In this document: positions 1,371 to 62,649 of the stretch, in pieces
Layout of the letters: each line of letters opens with the position of its first letter
How positions within the stretch are numbered: the first letter of the stretch is position 1
From: Gillisia sp. CAL575
Lineage (GTDB): Bacteria; Bacteroidota; Bacteroidia; Flavobacteriales; Flavobacteriaceae
Direction of reading: 5' to 3'
DNA length: 64,000 bases
Assembly: GCF_000403785.1 (NCBI RefSeq)
Contig: NZ_APHJ01000021.1
Span: 124,001-188,000, forward strand
The notes under the pieces: model-generated
Database searches by the model: none
What the model saw: the letters and a program-made list of their open reading frames with translations, nothing else
Told to the model about the DNA's origin: nothing
Position numbers and translations under genes: made by a program

Positions 1371-2201
1371 ATGAAAAGAATCCTCGTTCCTACTGACTTT
1401 TCCGTACAAGCGGAAAACGCATTAAAAGTTGCTGTTGAATTTGCTAAGCGTTTCGATGGAGAAATATTCCTACTACATATGTTGGAATTACCTTTACAAC
1501 TTGTAAATCCCGTAAGCGGAAGTAGCACCCAAGACTTGCCTGAAGCATTGTTTTTCATGAAGTTAGCAAGACAAAAATTCAAAAAACTAATAGACTCCCC
1601 ATTTTTAGAAGGAATAATAGTTCATGATATTGTAGAATTTCATCAAGCTTTTGATGGAATTATGGAAGTGAGCAAAGAACATAATTGTGATTTTATTGTC
1701 ATGGGTTCTAATGGTTCCAGCGGATTTAAGGAAGTCTTTATTGGATCTAATACAGAAAAAGTTGTTCGAAATTCCACCATTCCGGTGTTGGTAATAAAAA
1801 ACGAACACGAGAAATTCGACATTAATAACTTCGTTTTCGCTACAGATTGTGATCTGGAACATAAACATACTCTAAATAAAGCGATCCAATTTGCAAAAAA
1901 GATCAATGCCCATTTACATCTTGTCTATATAAACACCGCTAATAATTTTAAAACCTCGATAGAGGCTAATCAATGTTTAGAAGATTTTGTAAAAGGTGAA
2001 GATATAGAACATCATTCTCTTAATGTTTATAATGACGTTACGGTTGAAAAAGGCGTGCTTAATTTCGCAAAAAGCATCAATGCAGGCTTAGTGGGCATTA
2101 GCACTCATGGCAGAAAAGGATTAGCTCATTTCTTTAATGGAAGCATCAGTGAAGATCTAGTAAACCACGCAAACAGACCAGTGATCACTTTTAAGATCTA
2201 A
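1371..2201 (+). CDS. Tandem-domain universal stress protein (UspA family)
   Basis: The 276-residue protein has two UspA domains, about residues 1-146 and 150-276. Each begins with a beta strand typical of the fold (MKRILVPTDFS; NNFVFATDCD). Both carry the ATP-binding pattern G-x2-G-x9-G-S/T: GSNGSSGFKEVFIGSNTE in the first and STHGRKGLAHFFNGSISE in the second, so both may bind nucleotide. Family members are cytoplasmic stress-response proteins with varied partners, and the specific role here cannot be read from sequence. The gene is monocistronic and converges on the minus-strand gene at 2198, overlapping its stop by 4 bp. The start at ATG 1371 is the first in frame with the conserved strand. 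Confidence 0.92.
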   Translation: MKRILVPTDFSVQAENALKVAVEFAKRFDGEIFLLHMLELPLQLVNPVSGSSTQDLPEALFFMKLARQKFKKLIDSPFLEGIIVHDIVEFHQAFDGIMEVSKEHNCDFIVMGSNGSSGFKEVFIGSNTEKVVRNSTIPVLVIKNEHEKFDINNFVFATDCDLEHKHTLNKAIQFAKKINAHLHLVYINTANNFKTSIEANQCLEDFVKGEDIEHHSLNVYNDVTVEKGVLNFAKSINAGLVGISTHGRKGLAHFFNGSISEDLVNHANRPVITFKI

Positions 2202-3736
2202 AGAAAACTTTTTAGAGCTCCATTTCGAATACACAACCAAAGGAAATTCCAGAATGACTTTGTTTTGTCTCTGATTGCAGAAATGTTCTGTTGGTCTATT
2301 TTCTTATTTGCAGTTTCATTTTTCAAAATTAGGTTGGCGATACCAGATAAAAATTTATTTTTCCTAACACCATCTTTTCTGAGCACTTCCACTTTAAAAT
2401 CATGATATTGCAAACGGGTATCCCCTAGTGCATTGTCATCATTCCCGTAGAAATTAAAGAACATAGAAGATATCTTTCCTTCTACTACTATATTTAATGC
2501 CGGTTTTAAAAATGAATTCATAGCATCTGCAGATATTCCGGCAAGACTTCCAGAAAAGTTGAATTTATCTTTAGGGTCTCTAATATCAAATTCCATATTA
2601 AATTTCAAATTAGATTCCCCCATGAACTTAGTCTTCGCTTTAATAGTGGTTAGAGGAAAACCTTCAGCTTCCATATTTATATTAGAAACATTGGCAATAG
2701 ATACATTTAAATGGGAGAACATCACTTTTCCCGGCGGTTTTCCTGCCACAGATTTTTCTTCATAAATTAAACTGGAATTGGAAATCTGGATAGAATCAAA
2801 CTTCAATTTAGTATCAAGCTCTCTTAATTTTCTACTATATAGAGGTTTTATAGAAGTGTCATCTGGAAGAAGTTTATTTCTATAAACAAAAAATTCAGCA
2901 TTCTCAAAAGAAGTTGTCGCACTTTCTAGCTGAAGTTTATCTCCATTAAAGCCCCAAGAGAAACCTTTCATATTAAGAATAGGAACCTTCAATTCAAATC
3001 TATCTTTTTCTATATTTTGTCTTTGATCAAATTCTGCCTTGCTAAATATCGGGAGTATCCTGAGATCAGACATCTGCAAAGTTCCTTTATCGAGCTGAAA
3101 ATTTTTAACGTGAAGCTCATGTTCTGGATCTAAAGAATAAAATAGAGAGTCGCTTTCTATTGAAACTTCCCTAAATCTGAAAGGGATCTTATTTCTAAGA
3201 CTTTTTTTAGTAATATGAAGATCATAAATATCCATACTTTTAAGAGAAACATATAAGTCTTCTTTTACAGTATCATTTTTAGATATTTTTAGTTGACCAT
3301 CTTGAATCACCAAGTGCCTGATTTTTATATCCTCTTTAAAATCTTTTTTTGATGTATCCTTATCTCGGTCCTCAAGAGTGTCAGATGGAGTGATTAGAAT
3401 CTCAGGCTTTTTAAAAATAATCCTATCAAAGACAATTTTTTTATTGGAGAAATATTCTTTGTAGTCTAGATTTATAACACTTAATTCTTCAGACTTAATT
3501 ATTGCACCACCAAGTTTTAAGCTTGGACGGGAAACCACAGAACTACCGCTAATTATATCTACACTTATGTCCTCATATTCTACATTAGAATTAAGTAACT
3601 CCTGCTCTATTCCCGCCTTAATTTTTTGTTTCGCTATTTTATTAGCAAAGAATACAAGACCTAATAAAATAAATAGACCTATAAAAACATAAAGTATAAT
3701 CTTGTATTTCTTCTCCACGGTATCTGTACTTATCAA
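2198..3736 (-). CDS. AsmA-like single-pass membrane protein of unknown function
   Basis: This 512-residue protein has one N-terminal membrane segment (about residues 13-32, ILYVFIGLFILLGLVFFANKIA) followed by a long beta-rich soluble part. That part has repeated short amphipathic strands (ELSVINLDYKEYF, LKSMDIYDLHI, LNVSIANVSNINM) and a late block IKAKTKFMGESNLKFNMEF. This architecture resembles AsmA/DUF748-type envelope proteins, which form a periplasmic beta groove linked to lipid or outer-membrane homeostasis. No catalytic motif is visible. It stands alone, converging on usp. The family assignment is by general resemblance, so function stays unknown. Confidence 0.75.
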   Translation of the reverse strand: MISTDTVEKKYKIILYVFIGLFILLGLVFFANKIAKQKIKAGIEQELLNSNVEYEDISVDIISGSSVVSRPSLKLGGAIIKSEELSVINLDYKEYFSNKKIVFDRIIFKKPEILITPSDTLEDRDKDTSKKDFKEDIKIRHLVIQDGQLKISKNDTVKEDLYVSLKSMDIYDLHITKKSLRNKIPFRFREVSIESDSLFYSLDPEHELHVKNFQLDKGTLQMSDLRILPIFSKAEFDQRQNIEKDRFELKVPILNMKGFSWGFNGDKLQLESATTSFENAEFFVYRNKLLPDDTSIKPLYSRKLRELDTKLKFDSIQISNSSLIYEEKSVAGKPPGKVMFSHLNVSIANVSNINMEAEGFPLTTIKAKTKFMGESNLKFNMEFDIRDPKDKFNFSGSLAGISADAMNSFLKPALNIVVEGKISSMFFNFYGNDDNALGDTRLQYHDFKVEVLRKDGVRKNKFLSGIANLILKNETANKKIDQQNISAIRDKTKSFWNFLWLCIRNGALKSFL

Positions 3737-3873
3737 GCCAATTTACAAAGCTGAGGAGTTTTCTTGATTTGTGTTATACATATTTTAACTTATTTCCTTT
3801 AAGACACTGAAAACCTATACGTTAAATTTAAGTCAAAATGTAATTATTCAATTTAAATAACGACTCAAGGTAT

Positions 3874-3881
3874 TATATTTG
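3874..3881 (+). promoter_or_regulatory. -7 element upstream of the small membrane-protein gene
   Basis: TATATTTG matches TAnnTTTG and lies 45 bp upstream of the ATG at 3927. A -33 TTG is not obvious, so confidence is limited. Confidence 0.35.
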
Positions 3882-3926
3882 AATAATTAAATTTAGAATT
3901 TATAAAAACTATTACTCCTTTTAAAA

Positions 3927-4154
3927 ATGATATTTAAACTAGCATTAAAGATTGTGTTTCTGGCCACTGAAGTATTTCTTGGCTTTTACAGTTTGGTTAT
4001 GACAGACAGCTTGGGCATGAAATTTTTATTTTTCGCTTTTACAGCTTTTATCGTGGCATTTGCTATTACGAAATTTACAAATAAAATTTTACCTTCAGAT
4101 ATAGACTCGTTTCCTAATGACGACCTTATTGCTGAAGAATATATCAAAAAATAG
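3927..4154 (+). CDS. Small two-helix membrane protein, unknown function
   Basis: The 75-residue product has two predicted membrane helices, about residues 5-25 (LALKIVFLATEVFLGFYSLVM) and 30-50 (MKFLFFAFTAFIVAFAITKF). A short acidic tail follows (DIDSFPNDDLIAEEYIKK). It resembles small Flavobacteriaceae membrane proteins with no assigned role. A -7 promoter element lies upstream and a strong intrinsic terminator begins about 70 bp after the stop, so it looks like a complete single-gene unit. That supports a real gene despite its size. Confidence 0.65.
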   Translation: MIFKLALKIVFLATEVFLGFYSLVMTDSLGMKFLFFAFTAFIVAFAITKFTNKILPSDIDSFPNDDLIAEEYIKK

Positions 4155-4222
4155 AATTAAGCGTTAATAAAATTGTAGTCGAAGTTGTTGTAAAGATTGA
4201 AAGTGATAATGGCTATAATTTG

Positions 4223-4259
4223 AAAAATCCGATGAAATTGATTTCATCGGATTTTTTTT
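4223..4259 (+). terminator. Intrinsic terminator after the 75-residue membrane protein
   Basis: A perfect 16-bp inverted repeat (AAATCCGATGAAAT core, 2-base loop) ends in a run of eight T on the plus strand. It separates the small gene from the metallophosphoesterase, whose start lies 11 bp beyond. Confidence 0.85.
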
Positions 4260-4269
4260 ACAAGTACTT

Positions 4270-4896
4270 ATGAAGATTATTTGCATTTCTGACACTCACA
4301 ATAAACATGAGGATTTAATACTTCCTGATGGCGATTGTATAGTTCATGCAGGAGATTTTACAGAAGCGGGTACGAAAAAAGAAACCACTAATTTTCTTGA
4401 ATGGTATTCTTCAACTCCTTATAAACATAAAATATTGATTGCCGGAAATCATGATTTCTATTTGCAAAAGAAATCTTCTAAGTTAGAACAGTTCATTCCA
4501 TCCAACATTCATTATTTAGAAGATACTGGCGTGAGCATTGAAGATATCAACTTTTGGGGCTCCCCTTACACTCCGGGAGATAATAGCTGGGCTTTTACAA
4601 AAGATCGTGGTAGACCTATTTCTCAACATTGGAGCAAAATCCCTGCAACCACAAATATCTTAATTACCCACACCCCTCCTTTTGGCACCTTAGATGAGGT
4701 AGATAATAAATCTATGATTGGATGTAAAAATCTAAAAATGCGATTAAGTAAATTAAATATCAGTCATCATATATTTGGTCACGTGCATAATGACTATGGA
4801 AAAGTGAAAAGGGAAAAAACAACATACGTCAATTCTTCCTCTGTAGATCAATCCCATAGAATAATAAACCACCCCATTTCATTCATTTATCGATAA
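4270..4896 (+). CDS. Metallophosphoesterase (calcineurin-like, MPPED type)
   Basis: This 208-residue cytoplasmic protein carries the two-metal phosphoesterase motifs in order: SDTH (Asp8, His10), AGDF (Asp29), AGNHD (Asn60, His61), ILITHTPP (about residue 133) and GHVHNDYG near the C terminus. The short length and the HTPPFGTLD motif fit the MPPED1/2-like subgroup, small phosphodiesterases that act on cyclic nucleotides or other small phosphodiesters. The true substrate is unknown. The gene is preceded 11 bp upstream by a terminator and followed by an unlinked gene, so it is probably transcribed alone. Confidence 0.88.
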   Translation: MKIICISDTHNKHEDLILPDGDCIVHAGDFTEAGTKKETTNFLEWYSSTPYKHKILIAGNHDFYLQKKSSKLEQFIPSNIHYLEDTGVSIEDINFWGSPYTPGDNSWAFTKDRGRPISQHWSKIPATTNILITHTPPFGTLDEVDNKSMIGCKNLKMRLSKLNISHHIFGHVHNDYGKVKREKTTYVNSSSVDQSHRIINHPISFIYR

Positions 4897-4982
4897 AGTC
4901 CTTATATAGCCGCCTAAGAGCTCAGATAGTTAATTATTTGCTAATCAAGTAGATGTTAGGGTTTTATTAACATTATGAAGTG

Positions 4983-4990
4983 TAACTTTG
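4983..4990 (+). promoter_or_regulatory. -7 element upstream of the 113-residue gene
   Basis: TAACTTTG matches TAnnTTTG and lies 31 bp before the ATG at 5021. A TTAGG at 4956-4960 sits about where a -33 box would be but is not a consensus TTG. Confidence 0.5.
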
Positions 4991-5020
4991 CCTCTCAACC
5001 CTACGTAATTAATAATATTT

Positions 5021-5362
5021 ATGAACCTGAATATGGCAAACTTTACATTAAACGTAATCCTTGAAGATGTTAAAAATTTAATCTCTTATAGTATTACGAA
5101 TCAAGACGTAGACAACTCTAAGTTTGAAAGCTTACACAAAGCAATTATTAAAAGATATTTTGACGCAAAGAAAGTTAAAATTAATTATGCAGATCAGACC
5201 GTAGATCTTCAATTACCTGTAGCAAAAGCAAAGTATACTCCTATCACTTTTGAATGCTTAGACCTTGGAAGCTTTATTCAATCTTGTGTTAAAACAGATG
5301 AAAACAGCTTATATTTCTATCAGAATTTACTTACCCATTATAATATTGTAAGTGCAGCTTAG
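5021..5362 (+). CDS. Conserved-looking small protein of unknown function
   Basis: The 113-residue product is mixed alpha/beta with no signal peptide or membrane segment. An alternative start at 5033 (MANFTLNVILEDVKN) is plausible and would remove four residues. No family is recognised. Lys/Asp-rich helical segments (SLHKAIIKRYFDAKKVKINY) are followed by a strand-rich centre. It is flanked by a -7 promoter element and a strong terminator 24 bp after the stop, which makes it a self-contained single-gene unit and supports it being real. Confidence 0.7.
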   Translation: MNLNMANFTLNVILEDVKNLISYSITNQDVDNSKFESLHKAIIKRYFDAKKVKINYADQTVDLQLPVAKAKYTPITFECLDLGSFIQSCVKTDENSLYFYQNLLTHYNIVSAA

Positions 5363-26763: not shown

Positions 26764-28293
26764 TTAGAATCTTACTCTTTTTGAGATATTTATTGAGAGC
26801 CTTCTGAATATTAATTTCTCCTCTTCATCCAATCCGAATATCCACACACACATTAGTAAAGAAATTGTGCTAACCACTAAAGAAATACATAATCTTAAAA
26901 TTCCTTGTGAAAAAATAAAACTTGTAGAATAAGAAAGAAGGTAAGTAATCAAGAATGTAAGTATGCATGGGAAAATAACTTTTCTAATAAAATGTAGTAA
27001 AGATAGATTGCAATATTTTTTAGTGAAATATAATGTAATGCCTCCCTTAAAAAGAGCGTAAACAATAAAGACAATGTAAAGATAATAAGGAGGATATTCC
27101 ATCCAGAACAATAAATAGGAAATAGGTAAAGGCAAAATTGTCAATATAGACTGGCAAATTTGAAATAATTTTATTTTTCCAACTGCGTTAATAGAAGTTA
27201 CTAAAGTAAGGAACAATTGCTCAATAAGTCCTTTCATCAATAAAAGCTGGCAAAATATTACTGCAAAATTTGGAATATCTATTAACCATATCTTAAGTAT
27301 ATATTTTGTTTCAATTAAAAAGGGAACATAAAATATCAATAATAAAAAGAAGCCTAATTTACTGCCTATCAAAGAAGCTTTTAACATTAAACTTCTATTC
27401 CCCGCCCCTTCGCTTTTCGCTATCATCGGATTTAAAGCCCTTAACATAACATTCGCAAAAGCGCTCAGCTGACCACTAACCTGTGCTGCAATTCCTTGCG
27501 CTGCATTTATAGCTGTGCCAAAGAAAATATTTAGTACTATTCCTTGCCCATAATTGGCCACAATACTTGTAGAGGAACCTGCAAAAGACCAACCGGCAAA
27601 ACTCGTCATTTCCCTAAACAGCGGTTTGTTATAATATTTTTTTATACCTATTTCTACTTCCTCATATTTTTTATGACAGTAAACTTGCCTTACTATAAGC
27701 AATACAACAGATAAAGAAGCCATAAGCAATCCGTAAGTCATCAATTTATCATAAGGAGAAAAAGAAAGGTATATCGCTATAGCCAGTTTTAAAACTACTT
27801 CTATAATCCTTAGAATAGCAACCAGGAGCATATTTTCATGCGCATTAATTACCGCGTCGTAAGGAACAGAAATTATAGTAAAAAAAGTGCTTATTATAAG
27901 GAACTGGAAAACATCTTTAGCTACATCAATACGGTCGGGCTCTATATTTAGAAACCCACTAAATAAAAAGTAACTACATCCATACAGGAATATTACAACT
28001 ACAACAGCAACCCCTATATGAAGAAGGAGACTTATATTAAAAATTTGCTTTTGTTTTATCTCTACTCCTTCACCCTGGGCATAAGACATGAATCTTTGGG
28101 AAGCGGAAGCCATTGCTGTATTTAGAAAAGTAAGCATCGCGATGGCACCACCAACAAGATTAAATACGCCAAAATCCTTAATTCCTAAGGAAGATAGGAT
28201 AAGCCTGGTGGTATAAAGTGAAACAAATACCGTTATGGCCATCTGGACATATAGAAATGCGGTATTTTTAGCTACTTTGTTAGCCTGGCTCAT
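26764..28293 (-). CDS. wzx: Wzx-type oligosaccharide flippase (MOP superfamily)
   Basis: The 509-residue inner-membrane protein has about 12-14 helices. It starts with the MOP/RfbX-like N terminus MSQANKVAKNTAFLYVQMAITVFVSLYTTRLILSSLGIKDFGVFNLVGG. This is typical of lipopolysaccharide/exopolysaccharide flippases, which move undecaprenyl-linked repeat units across the inner membrane. Together with the Wzy-like gene it defines a Wzx/Wzy-dependent route. It lies about 55 bp downstream of the UDP-glucose dehydrogenase gene. Confidence 0.9.
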   Translation of the reverse strand: MSQANKVAKNTAFLYVQMAITVFVSLYTTRLILSSLGIKDFGVFNLVGGAIAMLTFLNTAMASASQRFMSYAQGEGVEIKQKQIFNISLLLHIGVAVVVVIFLYGCSYFLFSGFLNIEPDRIDVAKDVFQFLIISTFFTIISVPYDAVINAHENMLLVAILRIIEVVLKLAIAIYLSFSPYDKLMTYGLLMASLSVVLLIVRQVYCHKKYEEVEIGIKKYYNKPLFREMTSFAGWSFAGSSTSIVANYGQGIVLNIFFGTAINAAQGIAAQVSGQLSAFANVMLRALNPMIAKSEGAGNRSLMLKASLIGSKLGFFLLLIFYVPFLIETKYILKIWLIDIPNFAVIFCQLLLMKGLIEQLFLTLVTSINAVGKIKLFQICQSILTILPLPISYLLFWMEYPPYYLYIVFIVYALFKGGITLYFTKKYCNLSLLHFIRKVIFPCILTFLITYLLSYSTSFIFSQGILRLCISLVVSTISLLMCVWIFGLDEEEKLIFRRLSINISKRVRF

Positions 28294-28347
28294 TCAAAAC
28301 CAATTAGAATATTAGATGCAAGAAAAAGTAGTTTAGAACTCATTTTT

Positions 28348-29742
28348 TTAATTCCCAATGGCGTAATACTCAAAACCTATTTCTTTCATTCTCTTTTGAT
28401 CGAGAAGTTTTCGTCCATCAAATATAAATGCCGGTTTCAACATATTCTCATAAATCTTTTTCCAGTCTAAAGATTTAAACTCATCCCATTCAGTTAGCAC
28501 AGCAATTGCATGAGAATTTTCGCAGGCAAGAAAAGGAGTTCTAACTACCTTTAATAATTTACGGTTTTCAACCTCACTTCTTGTTCCAATATAATCCAGA
28601 TCTGCATAGATCTGTTCTTCGGTTACTTTTGGATCATAAACAACAATCTCTGCCTGTTCATTCAACAAATAATCGGCAACATAAATTGCTGCAGATTCCC
28701 TAGTATCGTTGGTGTCCTTTTTAAAGGCCCAGCCTAATAAAGCTATTTTCTTTCCTGAAACGGTATTGAATAGTGTTTTCACAATATTGGCTGCAAATCT
28801 TCTTTTTTGATGGTCGTTCATTATGATAACTTGCTCCCAGTAATCGGCTACTTCATTAAGCCCATAACTTTTAGCGATGTAAACCAGGTTTAAAATATCC
28901 TTTTGAAAACATGAGCCTCCAAAACCAACAGAGGCTTTTAAAAATTTAGGACCTATCCTGGAATCCATCCCTACAGCTTTGGCTACTTCACTTACATCGG
29001 CACCAGTCTTCTCACATAACTCGCTCATCGCATTTATGCTAGAAACTCTTTGAGCAAGGAAGGCATTAGCAGTTAATTTTGATAATTCTGATGACCACAC
29101 ATTAGTAGTCAATATCTGCTCCTTAGGAACCCATTCAGCATATACATCTACCAGTGCCTGCATAGCATCTCGGCCTTCTTTAGAATCCATATCTCCTCCA
29201 ATAAGTATTCTATCCGGATTATGCAGATCTTCTATAGCAGTACCTTCTGCTAAAAATTCGGGATTAGAAAGAATTTGATAATTTACTCCATTACCAGTAT
29301 TATCGAGAATATTCTTTAAAGCTTGGGCAGTTCTTACTGGCAAAGTAGATTTTTCTACTACAATTTTATCTGTAGTAGAGACGCGGGCGATCTGCCGAGC
29401 ACATAATTCGATATATTTTAAATCGGCAGCCATGCCTTTTCCAATTCCGTAGGTCTTGGTAGGTGTATTCACCGAAATAAAGATCATTTCTGCTTCAGCT
29501 ATAGCTTTATCAACTTCCGTAGAGAAGAAAAGATTTCTTCCTCTTGCTTCCTTTACAACATCTGCTAAGCCCGGCTCATAAATAGGTAAGTTGTCGAGAT
29601 CTTCATCATTCCAGGCAGCGATTCTTTTTTCATTAAGATCTACAACCGTAACGTTGACTCCCGGGTTCTTCTGAGCTATTACCGACATTGTTGGTCCTCC
29701 AACATAACCGGCTCCTATACAACAGATATTCTTAATCTTCAT
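28348..29742 (-). CDS. ugd: UDP-glucose 6-dehydrogenase, animal-like subtype
   Basis: Oxidises UDP-glucose to UDP-glucuronate with two NAD+. The 464-residue protein has the N-terminal Rossmann motif [12 protein letters not shown], the conserved block [25 protein letters not shown], the catalytic-cysteine motif [11 protein letters not shown] and the C-terminal [15 protein letters not shown]. Motif wording such as KNLFFST-like [30 protein letters not shown] and [11 protein letters not shown] closely follows animal UGDH rather than bacterial TuaD/Ugd, as I recall those sequences. It supplies glucuronate to the repeat unit and lies between fcl and the flippase gene. Confidence 0.95.
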
Positions 29743-29776
29743 TTTATTTACTGATTTCGCTGATTAAAGCGGATAC

Positions 29777-29800
29777 CACGGATTTGAGCGGATTGCGCAG
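29777..29800 (+). repeat. Solitary copy of the CACGGATT repeat
   Basis: A 24-bp segment matching the left inverted repeat at 30812-30835 at 19 of 24 positions by eye. It lies in the 62-bp gap between ugd and fcl. Related GGATT/GATTA words surround it (29756-29806). Confidence 0.6.
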
Positions 29801-29804
29801 ATTA

Positions 29805-30755
29805 CTATATTTTAACTTCTTTGAATTTGTCCTGATTATTCAAAAACCATTGATAAGTTTTTTGAATCCCTTCTTCTAGATCAGTCGAAGCTTTCCAACC
29901 GGCATCTTTCATTTTGTCTACATTCATCAATTTACGAGGCGTACCGTCTGGCTTGAAACTATCCCAGATAATTTCACCTTTATGACCTACAACTTTTTGA
30001 ATTGCCTCTGCCAGTTCTTTTATCGTAAGGTCTTTTCCAGTCCCTATATTGTATAGGTGCTCGGGTAATTTATTTTCCAAGGCAAAAACAACAGCATCTG
30101 CCATGTCATCCACGTTTAAAAATTCCCTCATAGGGCTTCCACTACCCCATAGTTCGACAGGTTTATTATCGCTGTTCTTAGCCTCGTGAAATTTGCGGAT
30201 CATCGCCGGAAGTACATGAGAAGTCTTTAAATCGAAATTATCATGGCTTCCATATAAATTGGTAGGCATCAGGCTTACATAATCTTTTCCAAATTGTTTT
30301 CTAATCGCTTCACAAGCCTTTACTCCTGCTATTTTAGCTATCGCATACCATTCATTGGTAGGCTCCAGGCTATCTGTAAGCAAATATTCTTCCTTTAACG
30401 GTTGGGGAGCCATTTTAGGATAAATACAGGAGCTACCAAGGAAAATAAATTTGTTTACTTCTGATTTATGAGCAGTATCTATCAAGTTATTTTGGATCTG
30501 TAAATTCTCCATTAAGAACTGATAAGGATATTCGCTGTTTGCCAGGATGCCTCCAACTCTCGCTGCAGCATCTATAACTACCTCAGGCTTTTCTGCTTCG
30601 AAAAACTGATTTACTGCTGTTTGATCCCTAAGGTCCAATTCTTTACTGGTCTTCCCTAAAAGATTAGTATACCCCTTGGCTGTAAGAGCTCTCCAGATAG
30701 CAGCGCCTACCATTCCACGGTGACCTGCTATGTATATCTTTGATTCCTTATTCAT
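29805..30755 (-). CDS. fcl: GDP-L-fucose synthase
   Basis: Converts GDP-4-keto-6-deoxymannose to GDP-L-fucose (3,5-epimerisation and NADPH reduction). The 316-residue SDR enzyme has the nucleotide motif IAGHRGMVGAAI, AARVGGILANSEYP, the LGSSCIYPKMAPQPL block with the active-site Ser and Cys, and Y-x3-K in NEWYAIAKIAG. The C terminus LMNVDKMKDAGWKAST is typical. It follows gmd in the pathway, although a TIR-flanked GxxExxY gene now separates the two. Length is standard. Confidence 0.96.
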   Translation of the reverse strand: MNKESKIYIAGHRGMVGAAIWRALTAKGYTNLLGKTSKELDLRDQTAVNQFFEAEKPEVVIDAAARVGGILANSEYPYQFLMENLQIQNNLIDTAHKSEVNKFIFLGSSCIYPKMAPQPLKEEYLLTDSLEPTNEWYAIAKIAGVKACEAIRKQFGKDYVSLMPTNLYGSHDNFDLKTSHVLPAMIRKFHEAKNSDNKPVELWGSGSPMREFLNVDDMADAVVFALENKLPEHLYNIGTGKDLTIKELAEAIQKVVGHKGEIIWDSFKPDGTPRKLMNVDKMKDAGWKASTDLEEGIQKTYQWFLNNQDKFKEVKI

Positions 30756-30811
30756 ATTAATTTTACGTTTTGCCTGATGTCTTGACCGTTGATCAAATCT
30801 TCTTCTGATTA

Positions 30812-30835
30812 CACGGATTAATGCGGATTACGCGG
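30812..30835 (+). repeat. Left terminal inverted repeat of the GxxExxY cassette
   Basis: A 24-bp segment beginning CACGGATTAA and ending GATTACGCGG. The reverse complement of 31284-31307 matches it at 21 of 24 positions, with both 10-base ends identical. It is followed by further GGATT-type words up to 30870. Confidence 0.75.
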
Positions 30836-30896
30836 AATGTTTACGGATTTAAAAAATGATTCCGCGGATTGGTTCTATTGATGAGGCGTATTGGCT

Positions 30897-31283
30897 CTAA
30901 CTGTGAGTCGTGTTGACAAAACGTTTCCACTTTAGGCTTTTTTCTCCAAAATTAATTAGCAATCCAACTTCTTTATTTGTTGCCTTTAGATAATTGATGA
31001 CCTGACTCTCCAGATTCTTATTTAAGAAAGAAACTGATTTTATTTCCAGGATGATCTTTTCGTAACACACGAAATCGGCTATAAAATATTTGCTTAATTC
31101 AGAGCCGTCGTAGAAAACTTTTAGCTTTTTCTGAGTTTCGAAAGGTATTTCTTCTTTTTTCAATTCTCTCCTCAAAGCCTCTTCATATACGGACTCTAAA
31201 AATCCACTCCCCAAATTTTTATGAACAGTCATACACGCACCGATCACCTTGTAAGTTTCTTCTTCAAAAAGTAATTTACTCAT
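30897..31283 (-). CDS. GxxExxY protein (PD-(D/E)xK nuclease-like fold)
   Basis: The 128-residue protein has the family's naming motif in GFLESVYEEAL. It also has a PD-(D/E)xK-like core FIADFVCYEKIILEIKSV, where the Asp and the E-x-K could form a metal site. These proteins are common, scattered singly through Bacteroidota genomes, and their function is unknown. The gene lies between gmd and fcl, where it has no pathway role. Inverted repeats bound it and the right one touches the ATG. It is probably a passenger of the insertion rather than part of sugar synthesis. Confidence 0.88.
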   Translation of the reverse strand: MSKLLFEEETYKVIGACMTVHKNLGSGFLESVYEEALRRELKKEEIPFETQKKLKVFYDGSELSKYFIADFVCYEKIILEIKSVSFLNKNLESQVINYLKATNKEVGLLINFGEKSLKWKRFVNTTHS

Positions 31284-31307
31284 CCGCGTAATCTGATTTA
31301 ATCCGTG
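31284..31307 (-). repeat. Right terminal inverted repeat of the GxxExxY cassette
   Basis: On the minus strand it begins CACGGATTAA and ends GATTACGCGG directly before the ATG of the GxxExxY gene. Compared with the left repeat, three central bases differ. Confidence 0.75.
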
Positions 31308-31318
31308 AAATGTTTTAT

Positions 31319-32431
31319 TTATTCAAAGTAGTTTAAAATATTATATCCTCCTTCTTGCAAATGCTGCTCTTTCTGCATCAATTGCACATCACTCTGCATC
31401 ATGTCTTTTACAAGGTCTTGAAGATCATATTCCGGGGTCCAGCCCAGTTTGGTATTTGCTTTTGTGGCGTCACCAATAAGCAATTCCACTTCTGTTGGTC
31501 TAAAATATTTTGGATCTACCGCCAAAACTTCTTTCCCTTCTTCCAATTGGAATTCAGGATTGCTACATGATTTTACATATGCCTTCTCGTCTACTCCTTC
31601 TCCTTTAAATTCAAGTTCTATCCCCACTTCTGCAAAACTCATTCTAACGAAATCTCTAACAGGAGTTGTCTTTCCGGTAGCGATCACCCAATCCTCAGCT
31701 TCTTCGGCCTGAAGGATCATCCACATCATTCTTACATAATCCTTAGCATGACCCCAATCTCTTTGTGCATCTAAATTTCCTAAATAAAATTTATCCTGTA
31801 ATCCTAATGCTATACGGGAAGTAGCTCTGGTGATCTTTCTGGTCACAAAAGTTTCCCCTCTAATTGGTGATTCGTGATTGAATAATATTCCATTACATGC
31901 ATACATTCCATAGGCTTCACGATAATTAACCGTGATCCAATAGGCGTACATTTTTGCAACTGCATAAGGACTTCTTGGATAAAATGGAGTAGTTTCAGAT
32001 TGCGGCACTTCCTGTACCTTTCCATATAATTCTGAAGTGGAGGCTTGATAAATTCTAGTCTTCTTTTCTAAACCTAAGATCCTAACCGCATCTAAAATTC
32101 GCAAAGTTCCCAATCCATCTGCATTTCCAGTATATTCCGGAATTTCAAAGGATACGTGAACATGACTCATTGCAGCAAGATTATAAATCTCATCCGGCTG
32201 AATTTGCTGGATAAGACGTATTAAATTGGTACTATCTGTCATATCTCCATAATGAAGAATAAAACGTTGGTTTTCTTCATGAGGATCTTGGTACAAATGA
32301 TCTATTCTATCTGTATTAAATTGCGATGCTCTTCTTTTTAAACCATGAACAACATATCCTTTCTTCAAAAGGAATTCACTTAAATAGGCACCGTCCTGTC
32401 CTGTTACACCTGTAATTAATGCTACTTTCAT
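31319..32431 (-). CDS. gmd: GDP-mannose 4,6-dehydratase
   Basis: First committed step from GDP-mannose to GDP-fucose. The 370-residue SDR enzyme has the motif [35 protein letters not shown], the catalytic Thr and Glu in [13 protein letters not shown], and Y-x3-K in [15 protein letters not shown]. The block [19 protein letters not shown] follows, and the C terminus carries [16 protein letters not shown]. Length is normal. It lies 3 bp downstream of the cupin gene. Product and GxxExxY position fit an interrupted manC-cupin-gmd-fcl set. Confidence 0.97.
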
Positions 32432-32434
32432 TTT

Positions 32435-32776
32435 TTACTCTCTATTATAATCGTCTTCAATTCTTATGATATCGTCTTCGCCAAAATATGTCCCATGCTG
32501 AACTTCCACAAATACTAAAGGTTCATTAAATGGGTTCTCTATTCTATGTTTTGCGCCTAGAGGAATTATTGCCACTTCTCCCGTAGAATAATCTTTAATT
32601 TCACCATTTAAGGTGATTCTTCCTGTTCCATTTACCATAGTCCAAACTTCTGCTCGTTTATGGTGATATTGATAGGAAAGTCTTCCACCTGGATTTACTT
32701 CTATTCTTTTAACTTTGTGAGTATCTGCATCTTCCAACACCCAATACTGTCCCCAAGGTCTTATGTCGTGTTCCAT
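32435..32776 (-). CDS. Cupin-domain mannose-6-phosphate isomerase-type protein
   Basis: The 113-residue single-cupin protein matches the C-terminal domain of bifunctional mannose-1-phosphate guanylyltransferase/mannose-6-phosphate isomerase. It shows RPWGQYWVLED, KVKRIEVNPGGRLSYQYHHKRAEVWTMVNGTGRITLNGE and IIPLGAKHRIENPFNEPLVFVEVQHG, with His, Glu and a later His for metal binding. Here it is encoded separately, 2 bp after the nucleotidyltransferase gene. It probably interconverts fructose-6-phosphate and mannose-6-phosphate for GDP-mannose synthesis. Activity as a free domain is inferred. Confidence 0.88.
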   Translation of the reverse strand: MEHDIRPWGQYWVLEDADTHKVKRIEVNPGGRLSYQYHHKRAEVWTMVNGTGRITLNGEIKDYSTGEVAIIPLGAKHRIENPFNEPLVFVEVQHGTYFGEDDIIRIEDDYNRE

Positions 32777-32778
32777 AC

Positions 32779-33780
32779 TTATTTTATTAGTGGAGAACTA
32801 GCATCCTCCAAGATTTGATAAACTTCTTTCACTTTTTGAGAGGCTTCTTTAGTCAATACTAGATTTGCATCTGGAGTACAAACAAGGATGGAGTTTTCTA
32901 AGCCAACAAAGGCTGTGTATTTATCGCTTCCAATTACCATATTTCCAGCTTCATCTACAGGTTGTCCATTTTCTTTTAAATGATCATATACAGCTTCAAA
33001 GCTCCCCATGTCATTCCACTCAAAGCAAGACTTAACTACTTTTATCTTCTCACTATGTTCCATCACTGCATAATCTATGCTCACAGAAGGAATTGCCAAG
33101 GAGGCATTTAGATCTAAAAGTGCATTTTCTGATACTTGCCATGCCTCTAAAGATTTATTATAAACTTCCGGTGCATATTTTTTTAATTCTTCCAAATAGA
33201 CTCCCGCCTGAACACAAAACATCCCGCTATTCCAAAGAAAGTTTCCGGCTTCTATAAAATTACAAGCATCTTCTTTGTTCGGTTTTTCTCTAAACGATAA
33301 CACCTTCTCTGCATCATGCTCGATATAACCATATCCAGTTTCAGGTTTCGATGGCTCTATTCCAAAAGTCACAATGGAACCTTCTTTTGCTAACTCTATA
33401 GCTCTTTCTATAGATTTGGTATATTCTTCACCTTCTTTGATGATATGATCTGCAGGGGTAATTAGCAATATACTTTCTGGTGCTACAGCAAAAGCTGCAA
33501 AAGCAATTGCAGGAGCCGTATTACGTGGAGTAGATTCTACAATATTGGTATAATCTAAAACGTTCAGCTTTTTTAAACTAGCCTCTGAAAGTTCCGTGTT
33601 TTGTTGATTCCCAACCACAACAAGGCCATTTGAAAAAGCCGAATTTCGTTGAACAGCTAGTTCAAATAAAGAATTGTTAGAAAAAAGTTGAAGATATTGT
33701 TTAGGCCGTGATTGCCTAGAAAGGGGCCATAATCTGCTCCCAACGCCTCCGGTAAGGAGAACGTGAATAATTTGTTGCAT
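32779..33780 (-). CDS. manC: Mannose-1-phosphate guanylyltransferase
   Basis: Makes GDP-mannose from mannose-1-phosphate and GTP. The 333-residue protein has the nucleotidyltransferase signature VLLTGGVGSRLWPLSRQSRPKQYLQLF. It also has the metal-site region ILLITPADHIIKE, TFGIEPSKPETGYGYIE and FREKPNKEDACNFIEAGNFLWNSGMF. The C-terminal isomerase cupin present in many ManC/AlgA proteins is absent here and occurs as the next gene. It is the first enzyme gene after a 300-bp leader with its own promoter. Two GAAAGTAGG-CTAA repeats (33785-33817) precede the start. Confidence 0.95.
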   Translation of the reverse strand: MQQIIHVLLTGGVGSRLWPLSRQSRPKQYLQLFSNNSLFELAVQRNSAFSNGLVVVGNQQNTELSEASLKKLNVLDYTNIVESTPRNTAPAIAFAAFAVAPESILLITPADHIIKEGEEYTKSIERAIELAKEGSIVTFGIEPSKPETGYGYIEHDAEKVLSFREKPNKEDACNFIEAGNFLWNSGMFCVQAGVYLEELKKYAPEVYNKSLEAWQVSENALLDLNASLAIPSVSIDYAVMEHSEKIKVVKSCFEWNDMGSFEAVYDHLKENGQPVDEAGNMVIGSDKYTAFVGLENSILVCTPDANLVLTKEASQKVKEVYQILEDASSPLIK

Positions 33781-33784
33781 GTTA

Positions 33785-33817
33785 GAAAGTAGGCTAATCT
33801 TTTGAAAGTAGGGCTAA
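33785..33817 (-). repeat. Tandem 13/14-bp direct repeat just before manC
   Basis: GAAAGTAGGCTAA at 33785-33797 and GAAAGTAGGGCTAA at 33804-33817. On the transcribed strand both show a TTAGC-type box. A third TTAGC occurs near 33846-33851. Confidence 0.6.
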
Positions 33818-33856
33818 CAAAAGAATGAAAAATAATAAATTTAGGATGCTAATCTC

Positions 33857-33894
33857 ACGGCTTCGCCGTTCTAAGTCCCATTTTTTGGGCTTAG
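33857..33894 (-). promoter_or_regulatory. Two tandem hairpins in the exopolysaccharide operon leader
   Basis: In transcription order: a hairpin of CTAAGCCCA / TGGGACTTAG with one bulged base and an A5 loop (33871-33894), then ACGGC-GAA-GCCGT (33857-33869). They lie between the promoter near 34007-34034 and manC at 33780, directly downstream of the UpxY-like gene. UpxY/RfaH-type regulators act on such leader RNA or DNA, so this is a plausible target. The hairpin structures are visible; the function is inferred. Confidence 0.5.
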
Positions 33895-34006
33895 GTAATC
33901 TGTTTATTTAATTTCCTTTTTTATAGTAAAAGGCAAAACTATACGTATTTACATCAAAACTATTACGGATAACCGCAATATAAAAAGACATGATTTTTTA
34001 AGTCGG

Positions 34007-61682: not shown

Positions 61683-61699
61683 AGTTTCAGTTAACAATG

Positions 61700-61712
61700 A
61701 TCAATTAGCAAT
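61700..61712 (+). repeat. Left terminal inverted repeat of the four-helix-bundle cassette
   Basis: ATCAATTAGCAAT, a perfect inverse of 62073-62085. It lies 18 bp upstream of the hemW start, followed by further ATCAATT words. Confidence 0.75.
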
Positions 61713-61714
61713 AA

Positions 61715-62074
61715 TCAATTTTTGATTCTTGTAGTTTTCAAATTTGAAAACATTATTTTGGATAGTTCATTTGCTATCTCATAAGAATTTTGGAATGTAT
61801 CTACCTCCAAATTTTCTGAGTCTTGTAGAAGTGACAACCAATATTTTCCCTCAAGACTTTCTTTATAAGCTATAGAAATTTTTGCTGAAAAGTCAACTTT
61901 GGAAATCGCTCCATTTGCTTCAGCTACATTAGCTCCAATAGAGGTGCCAGATCTCAATAATTGTTTGGATAATACAAACTCCTTTTTATAAGCAATAAGA
62001 TTTTTGTAAATACTTATTATTATCAATGCAAAATCATAAGATTTCTTCGAAAGTGGGTTATTAATTTCACTCAT
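61715..62074 (-). CDS. Four-helix-bundle protein (23S rRNA intervening-sequence family)
   Basis: The 119-residue protein has the family motif LLRSGTSIGANVAEANGAIS, then KISIAYKESLEGKYWLSLLQDSENL, in a four-helix fold. Members are often found within intervening sequences of 23S rRNA genes, but also singly elsewhere. Here no rRNA is near. Function is unknown. Inverted repeats bound it, one overlapping the start codon. Confidence 0.88.
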   Translation of the reverse strand: MSEINNPLSKKSYDFALIIISIYKNLIAYKKEFVLSKQLLRSGTSIGANVAEANGAISKVDFSAKISIAYKESLEGKYWLSLLQDSENLEVDTFQNSYEIANELSKIMFSNLKTTRIKN

Positions 62075-62085
62075 TGCTAATTGAT
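62073..62085 (-). repeat. Right terminal inverted repeat of the four-helix-bundle cassette
   Basis: On the minus strand ATCAATTAGCAAT directly precedes and includes the first two bases of the ATG. A related CTAATTG/TTATTGATT stretch occurs at 63980-64000. Confidence 0.75.
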
Positions 62086-62091
62086 ATTAGT

Positions 62092-62649
62092 TTATTGCTT
62101 TTTGAGTTTACTCGGATTTTGCTTTACAAAGGAATCCCAACCCGTATAACTTTTACCCACTTCCACTCTACCGGAATTGTAAAAATGACAGACCGCTGCT
62201 GCCAATCCATCTGTTGAATCTAAATTCTTAGGCAATTCTTTAAGACCCAACAAACTTTGCAGCATCTTAGCCACTTGTTCCTTACTGGCATTCCCATTGC
62301 CTGTAATGGCCATTTTAATCTTTTTGGGCAAGTATTCTGTAATAGGAACTTCTCTGGATAATCCGGCAGCCATGGCTACCCCTTGTGCTCTCCCGAGTTT
62401 TAGCATAGATTGCACATTTTTCCCAAAAAAGGGTGCTTCTATAGCGATCTCATCTGGATGAAAAGTATCAATTAACTCCACGGTACGCTCAAAAATTAGT
62501 TTCAGTTTAATATAAGGATCGCTATATTTCTGAAGTAACAACTCATTAAGTTGTAAAAACTCCATTTTTTTGTTCACTACCTTGATTAAACCAAACCCCA
62601 TAATGGTGGTTCCAGGGTCGATTCCTAAAATAATTCGTTCGTTTTTCAA
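62092..62649 (-). CDS. ruvC: Holliday junction endonuclease RuvC
   Basis: Resolves Holliday junctions as a dimer with RuvAB. The 185-residue protein has the first catalytic Asp in ILGIDPGTT and the Glu in EIAIEAPFFGKNVQSMLKLGRAQGVAM. The C-terminal acidic pair region is LDSTDGLAAAVCHFYNSG. All four catalytic acids of the family seem present. Length is normal. The gene lies 18 bp upstream of the four-helix-bundle gene, so the insertion separated it from hemW. Confidence 0.95.
   Translation of the reverse strand: MKNERIILGIDPGTTIMGFGLIKVVNKKMEFLQLNELLLQKYSDPYIKLKLIFERTVELIDTFHPDEIAIEAPFFGKNVQSMLKLGRAQGVAMAAGLSREVPITEYLPKKIKMAITGNGNASKEQVAKMLQSLLGLKELPKNLDSTDGLAAAVCHFYNSGRVEVGKSYTGWDSFVKQNPSKLKKQ

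Follow-up and report, generated by a model that had tools for sequence, protein, structure and literature searches.

The window (the whole stretch of 64,000 nucleotides of Gillisia sp. CAL575 DNA that was analyzed) contains, between gmd and fcl, a small gene of the GxxExxY family held between two arms of short words in inverted order. This locus is one example of a widespread unit in which a small PD-(D/E)XK (RecB/Cas4-like) gene is flanked by arms made of CRCDRA words (C, A or G, C, not C, A or G, A). Two other families, S23/IVP and DUF559, are also found between inverted arms, each with words of another type, and these family-specific word sets suggest a form of gene unit, bounded by repeats, that is as yet undescribed.

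The GxxExxY gene (PDDEXK_3, 128 amino acids; 30897–31283, minus strand) is the core of the unit, with profile matches to PF13366 (E = 8.8e-41, 139.4 bits for a cut-off of 22) and to TIGR04256 (E = 4.9e-44, 149.4 bits for a cut-off of 35) and with the PD-(D/E)XK residues. As the preliminary description had it, a small nuclease-like gene lies between gmd (GDP-mannose 4,6-dehydratase; 31319–32431, minus strand) and fcl (GDP-L-fucose synthase-like; 29805–30755, minus strand). The upstream arm (31283–31311, minus strand) reads toward the gene CACGGATTA / ATCAGATTA / CGCGGA and abuts the start codon, the minus-strand start being at 31283; one repeat had indeed been noted to end there. The downstream arm (30808–30836, plus strand) reads ATTACACGG ATTAATGCGG ATTACGCGGA, and the additional words TTTACGGATT and CCGCGGATT extend it to about 30867. 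The two arms are 29 nt each, 86% complementary, and 446 nt apart; the inverted repeat of 24 nt with 21 matches that was noticed at the outset lies inside them. When the 350-nt upstream flank is shuffled by dinucleotides, 3 of 3000 sequences reach the observed score. GxxExxY is the sole gene inside the arms, and no transposase is present between them.

A further copy of the repeat had been reported at 29777–29800. It belongs to a gene-less series (about 29750–29805, plus strand) that lies between ugd and fcl and is made of words of the arm class; its match to the downstream arm is equaled by 1 of 1000 shuffles. The words of the series (CGCTGATT, AGCGGATA, CACGGATT, AGCGGATT, and CGCAGATT) are a mixture and do not make a clean third terminal inverted repeat (TIR). 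The arms around the gene are likewise series of short words, not classical TIRs: of the TIR-bounded cassette first proposed, the gene and its repeats stand as a unit, but with word series that vary by locus instead of a fixed TIR. When GGATTANNCGGATT was searched in the same genome with at most one mismatch, 32 matches were obtained (vs. 14 for the reversed control), and among the seven match sites read away from the window locus none resembles the word series.

PF13366 has three matches in this genome, at three unrelated places, and all three genes are flanked by inverted words, with a different word at each: CGGATTA in the window, CGCAGAT at the second locus (L002), and CACGAAT at the third (L003). 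The repeats anticipated at the other copies are thus there, with a common grammar and a different sequence, and the contrary outcome, copies devoid of such repeats, did not come up. Taken singly, the arms at L002 and L003 stand out only modestly from shuffled sequence (79 and 43 of 3000 as high, respectively) and, therefore, the case rests on a survey.

Sixty Bacteroidota genomes were surveyed, with GxxExxY present in 28, S23/IVP in 44, and ParE, used as control, in 41. The named GxxExxY loci come from named genomes, where the best 80 were taken out of 542 confirmed ones instead of a random draw, and their gene ends were set by reading on to the stop. Removal of 27 entries with proteins more than 80% identical and of three with short flanks reduced the 252 survey entries to 222 loci, the window gene included. 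The arm score is that of an alignment between the 350 nt upstream and the reverse-complemented 350 nt downstream, with a threshold of at least 20. At this threshold, inverted arms are found in 40 of 67 named and 33 of 66 Bacteroidota GxxExxY loci (73/133, de-duplicated) and in 30 of 60 S23/IVP loci, vs. none of the 29 ParE controls (Fisher p of 2.6e-9, 2.4e-7, and 4.1e-7, respectively). The arms are often eroded or absent, since 60 of the 133 GxxExxY loci stay under the threshold. Direct repeats scoring at least 20 are less frequent (30/67 and 19/66 for GxxExxY, 9/60 for S23, 1/29 for ParE). An earlier control, not de-duplicated, gave 17 of 174 open reading frames near the named loci at 20 or above vs. 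55 of 79 GxxExxY loci, with wrong coordinates for four loci at contig ends (L136, L153, L184, and L191) that are corrected in the 222-locus survey.

Among all the loci of its family, a locus's own downstream arm is the best partner in 44/133 GxxExxY, 24/60 S23, and 1/29 ParE cases, and it ranks in the top 5% in 83/133, 43/60, and 7/29, respectively; pairings of arms across different loci score far lower than own pairings. Within a locus, a word is common to both arms, and between loci the word differs and drifts with the protein. The word content of the GxxExxY arms tracks protein identity (rho 0.25, equaled in 0 of 500 permutations), with rho −0.01 in the far flanks. For S23, arms and proteins show no correlation (rho 0.07, p 0.23). 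An outsize low-complexity array (L182) was omitted from this Mantel test and from the word-spacing, wobble, k-mer, and target-site-duplication tests below.

With tandem words defined by a start spacing of 8–12, CRCDRA words flank the gene on each side at 45 of 67 named and 23 of 66 Bacteroidota GxxExxY loci (68/133), and at no S23 (0/60) or ParE (0/29) locus. In flanks 500–850 nt off, they are on both sides in 0/61 named and 1/64 Bacteroidota GxxExxY, 0/59 S23, and 0/26 ParE loci. Among the families tested, CRCDRA arms are confined to GxxExxY. The spacing has its maximum at 9 (92 cases at 8, 213 at 9, and 124 at 10). Most words point toward the gene: upstream, 53 are inward, 16 outward, and 15 in both directions; downstream, the numbers are 63, 21, and 3. 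Among 11 GxxExxY loci from beyond Bacteroidota or from its margin (genomes from the other phyla listed below for S23, with Idiomarina, WOR-3, and Balneolaceae), 8 have CRCDRA words on both sides, the exceptions being L124, L126, and L132.

The flanks of S23 genes follow another rule, with period 7 the best in 40 of 60 loci. Self-matches of at least 19/24 at that period occur in 39/60 S23 loci vs. 4/67 and 6/66 GxxExxY and 1/29 ParE loci. The window has such a gene, the second armed family (S23/23S rRNA IVP, PF05635; 61715–62074, minus strand), with the heptads AATGATC AATTAGC AATAATC AATTTTT beside it (61694–61722, plus strand) and matching heptads on the opposite side at about 62073–62098; as an inverted repeat this pair is not significant (969 of 3000 shuffles as high). 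A k-mer classifier separates GxxExxY from S23 arms with a balanced accuracy of 0.76 (mean of 0.50 and maximum of 0.73 over 200 permutations), as compared with 0.53 on the far flanks. In other phyla (Chloroflexota, Acidobacteriota, Verrucomicrobiota, Gemmatimonadota, and Melioribacteraceae, mostly MAGs with binning errors possible), 29 of 30 fetched S23 loci (the partial match L383 left out; not de-duplicated, and with flanks down to 60 nt) have inverted arms in 20 cases, period 7 in 24, and CRCDRA on both sides in none.

The protein itself appears to be a conserved nuclease. An alignment of 30 GxxExxY proteins shows D70 in every sequence and E80 and K82 in at least 90% (L043 deviates), by which the predicted PD-(D/E)XK nuclease residues are intact. 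The AlphaFold model has a pLDDT of 91.9, and the nearest PDB entry in a fold search is Cas4 SSO0001 (E = 3.5e-4; chain G at 3.1 Å rmsd with E = 1.9e-3), with weaker matches to RecE, lambda exonuclease, and others. A resolvase was considered and set aside: the profile match to T7 endonuclease I is non-significant (E of 0.5 and 0.95), and in the fold search Cas4 comes first, with a Holliday junction resolvase at E = 0.29. Judged from codon comparisons within the genus, the GxxExxY genes are under purifying selection, with dN/dS of 0.05 for L003 (vs. G015) and of 0.05, 0.06, and 0.15 for L002 (vs. G013, G006, and G002, respectively); dS was saturated in two additional pairs. In three genomes (L423, L424, and L425), GxxExxY is fused in frame at the N terminus of RecQ, and both AATCAGCG and AATCAGTG, which are GxxExxY words in reverse complement, occur in the linker DNA of the fusion.

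DUF559 (PF04480) is the third armed family. Ahead of the test, we predicted from known repeats of this kind that its arms would be C-rich. Of 30 fetched loci, 23 entered the arm test, weak partial matches being left out. The solitary genes among them, 15 loci of which one was dropped for a short flank, have inverted arms of at least 20 in 8 of 14 cases and C-words on both sides in 8 of 14; C-words are on both sides in 1/67 and 3/66 GxxExxY, 2/60 S23, and 2/29 ParE loci. No CRCDRA pair occurs around the 14 solitary DUF559 loci. Unexpectedly, eight more DUF559 matches lie within long open frames, with arms of at least 20 in 5 of 8, and the DUF559 domain is found together with both arms in frame inside leuS, metH, hsdM, and hsdR (host genes identified with Pfam for leuS of this genome and of G126, metH, hsdM, and hsdR, and by eye for the remaining leuS). 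The leuS of the present genome (L426; G000:C18:174500-181500, open frame 1810–5127) has an in-frame insert of 468 nt, in which a DUF559 nuclease domain stands between C-rich inverted arms, adjoining the editing domain. The inserts in leuS occupy one site in this genome, G014, G130, and G106, and another site in G126, so that leuS of this genome and leuS of G126 each provide the empty site of the other. In other Bacteroidota, DUF559 is in frame at the other leuS site (L434) and in metH (L431), hsdM (L430), and hsdR (L429). Of all the observations, these in-frame inserts point most clearly to an arm–gene–arm assembly that behaves as one inserted unit, and they do so for DUF559, not for GxxExxY.

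For GxxExxY, gain and loss can be followed at a few sites. Among 20 fcl loci, two are without gmd in reach, and the gmd–fcl junction is readable in 18, with GxxExxY present in 3 and absent in 15, some of the latter being more distant gmd–fcl pairs. The empty junctions that the preliminary description asked for thus exist, two of them (L036 and L040) in the same genus as the window. The three occupied junctions are the window, L035 (same genus), and L043 (another genus). In L035, the protein is 36% identical and the words are quite different (CACAGAG type); in L043, the protein is 59% identical, the arms are almost gone, and the unit could be the same old insertion as that of the window. The empty junction L044 contains a gene-less word array. 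At the L003 site, among 12 relatives, the gene is present in G014 (where the open frame is not intact in the ORF search), G015, and G007; remnants are seen in five (G001, G004, G005, G006, and G010), and neither gene nor words in G002, G003, G009, and G013. At the L002 site, the gene is present in G001, G002, G003, G006, and G013 and absent in G004, G005, G008, G009, G010, G014, and G015, with three more unreadable. Decay alongside gain is seen at several sites, and the pattern of the L003 site in the genus, with its five remnants among 12 relatives, also fits an old decaying insertion. At the L002 site, unit-free relatives (L198, L212, and L206) have another hairpin repeat, of GGGCGTTACCC...GGGTCGGGC type, and G006 (L195) has both GxxExxY units and a hairpin of that type.

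Hairpins with the L003 word and no gene are found at nine listed places in G002 and at three in the present genome. G002 has dispersed near-identical repeats of at least 300 nt (L237–L244) with a gene-less CACGAAT hairpin at their center. Since G002 has many such solo hairpins while its own L003 site is empty, the pairing between gene and cognate word may not be strict. Target-site duplications, another expectation of the preliminary description, are largely missing: an exact flank match of at least 9 is present at only 5 of 102 loci (vs. 0.6% of mismatched pairs), and flank duplications occur only in tandem arrays, at L035 and L195. In L035 (G001), CACAGAG-type hairpins are in tandem, and a 22-nt stretch from the end of gmd is repeated alongside, as is the start of fcl; in L195 (G006, L002 site), there are two tandem GxxExxY units, and after each of them comes a duplicate of the 5′ part of the next gene. 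Tandem duplication explains both as well as insertion does. A phage origin of the unit was also considered, and the phage collection gave no match; eight plasmid records contain distant relatives, all below 60% identity.

We give a slight preference to the reading in which a nuclease gene and its cognate foldback arms spread together as one unit; of this reading, recognition and movement are the parts that we infer. The GxxExxY protein would recognize its own arms, probably in the form of DNA hairpins or of cruciforms that the inverted words extrude, and would cut there; repair or replication would copy the unit, or a gene-less hairpin, into new intergenic sites, and correction between the hairpin arms would keep the two arms alike. 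S23 is not a nuclease and, hence, a nuclease mechanism is not the whole story of the class. The broader proposal, held tentatively and with a shade less assurance, is a general undescribed class of foldback units, with unrelated orphan cores inside family-specific inverted arrays, that would spread with their arms from phylum to phylum, no transposase being inside them, and would shed gene-less hairpins, which would account for some of the intergenic repeats in bacterial genomes. Its cores would be the GxxExxY nuclease (CRCDRA, spacing about 9), the S23/IVP four-helix bundle (degenerate heptads, period 7), and the DUF559 nuclease (C-rich hairpin words). The arrays could instead have come first, as dispersed repeats into which orphan genes inserted or between which they recombined, and gene-less arrays do exist at 29750–29805, at the empty junction L044, and dispersed in G002. 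This order of events is unlikely, however, with CRCDRA on both sides of 68/133 GxxExxY vs. 0/60 S23 loci, and of 0/29 S23 loci of other phyla in genomes whose GxxExxY loci do have CRCDRA. The sorting of the grammar by gene family is strict, which argues against passive landing, unless insertion is word-specific, and that would be recognition again.

Pairing at the RNA level, with the unit excised or processed as a stem like the 23S rRNA intervening sequence, is suggested by S23/IVP, the protein of the 23S rRNA intervening sequence, being the second family with arms, and by arms able to pair in the sense transcript. We consider it quite unlikely, because the mismatches on the sense strand of the GxxExxY arms comprise 256 wobble-type vs. 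290 other transitions (73 loci) and those of the S23 arms 73 vs. 84 (29 loci); a first run, with the four contig-end loci miscoordinated, gave 197 vs. 222 and 21 vs. 33. Without an excess of G–U-compatible mismatches, pairing of DNA is favored over pairing of RNA, although not proven, and a search of window positions 27000–34000 against Rfam gave no match up to E = 1. That the words are binding sites of the protein for autoregulation, in an immobile unit, would agree with serial short words near the start codon, with word content that tracks the protein, and with purifying selection; but words also occur downstream, in inverted order, solo hairpins lie far from the gene, and operators do not explain why DUF559 units, built to the same plan, stand in frame within host genes, so that this model is, in our judgment, improbable. 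Finally, the arms of L002, L003, and the window S23 gene are individually modest (79, 43, and 969 of 3000 shuffles), as chance or the base composition of AT-rich intergenic DNA would produce; with 0/29 ParE loci in the same 60 genomes, almost none in the far flanks, and far lower scores across loci, such an origin is hardly credible.

The units resemble several known systems without coinciding with any. REP/RAYT systems combine a Y1 HUH transposase (TnpA_REP) with single REP palindromes. Like the GxxExxY unit, they have a small nuclease-type gene, inverted short repeats, and dispersed gene-less repeats; their repeats are cognate to the protein, and the words that track the GxxExxY protein, with the solo hairpins, are a possible counterpart. 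Unlike them, the GxxExxY protein is PD-(D/E)XK, not Y1 HUH, and its arms are serial words with a spacing of 8–10. In 23S rRNA, the copies of the S23/IVP gene are within stem-forming inserts. These intervening sequences share with the present units an orphan gene inside an inverted repeat and the S23/IVP family itself, but the units here stand between protein genes (gmd and fcl in the window), show no RNA-pairing bias, and have arms of heptad arrays (S23) or CRCDRA words (GxxExxY). Rickettsia palindromic elements are palindromic DNA in frame in protein genes and are not known to carry a gene of their own; the DUF559 units are similar in-frame palindromic insertions, but with a nuclease domain between the arms. 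Insertion sequences with TIRs and MITEs also have inverted termini and gene-bearing and gene-less forms, whereas the present units have no transposase between the arms and few target-site duplications, and, unlike those of insertion sequences, their termini vary by locus (three words for the three copies of this genome). Homing endonucleases and inteins likewise place a nuclease gene at sites empty in relatives, as with the in-frame DUF559 inserts. In contrast to these, the GxxExxY copies of this genome are at three unrelated places with no single conserved target, DUF559 is in four host genes and at two leuS positions, and word arms are not known as a part of homing endonuclease or intein systems.

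Cyanobacterial STRR are tandem intergenic heptamers of period 7, like the S23 arms. So are the TAACTGA heptamer repeats, intergenic in Beggiatoaceae, Cyanobacteria, and Bacteroidetes (PMC4679880); the S23 arms differ from them by being inverted around a gene, and the main text of that paper does not contain the term "s23". The term "GxxExxY" occurs in two papers, PMC8934634 and PMC12085832. Among the matches listed in a literature search, mostly open-access, no paper links GxxExxY, S23/IVP, or DUF559 to such arms. The class is held to be new, since the defining features of the nearest kinds were looked for and not found in these units; its mechanism is a proposed one.

No function has been agreed on for GxxExxY, S23/IVP, or DUF559, although all three orphan families are common; short word repeats between genes, too, are a common feature that lacks an explanation. 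The tie between family and grammar gives the protein a candidate DNA site and the repeat a candidate protein, an association open to testing on any genome collection. If the units move, they would offer bacterial genes a route of spread for which they need not encode a transposase, and the DUF559 inserts, being in frame, would represent the entry of such units into essential genes.
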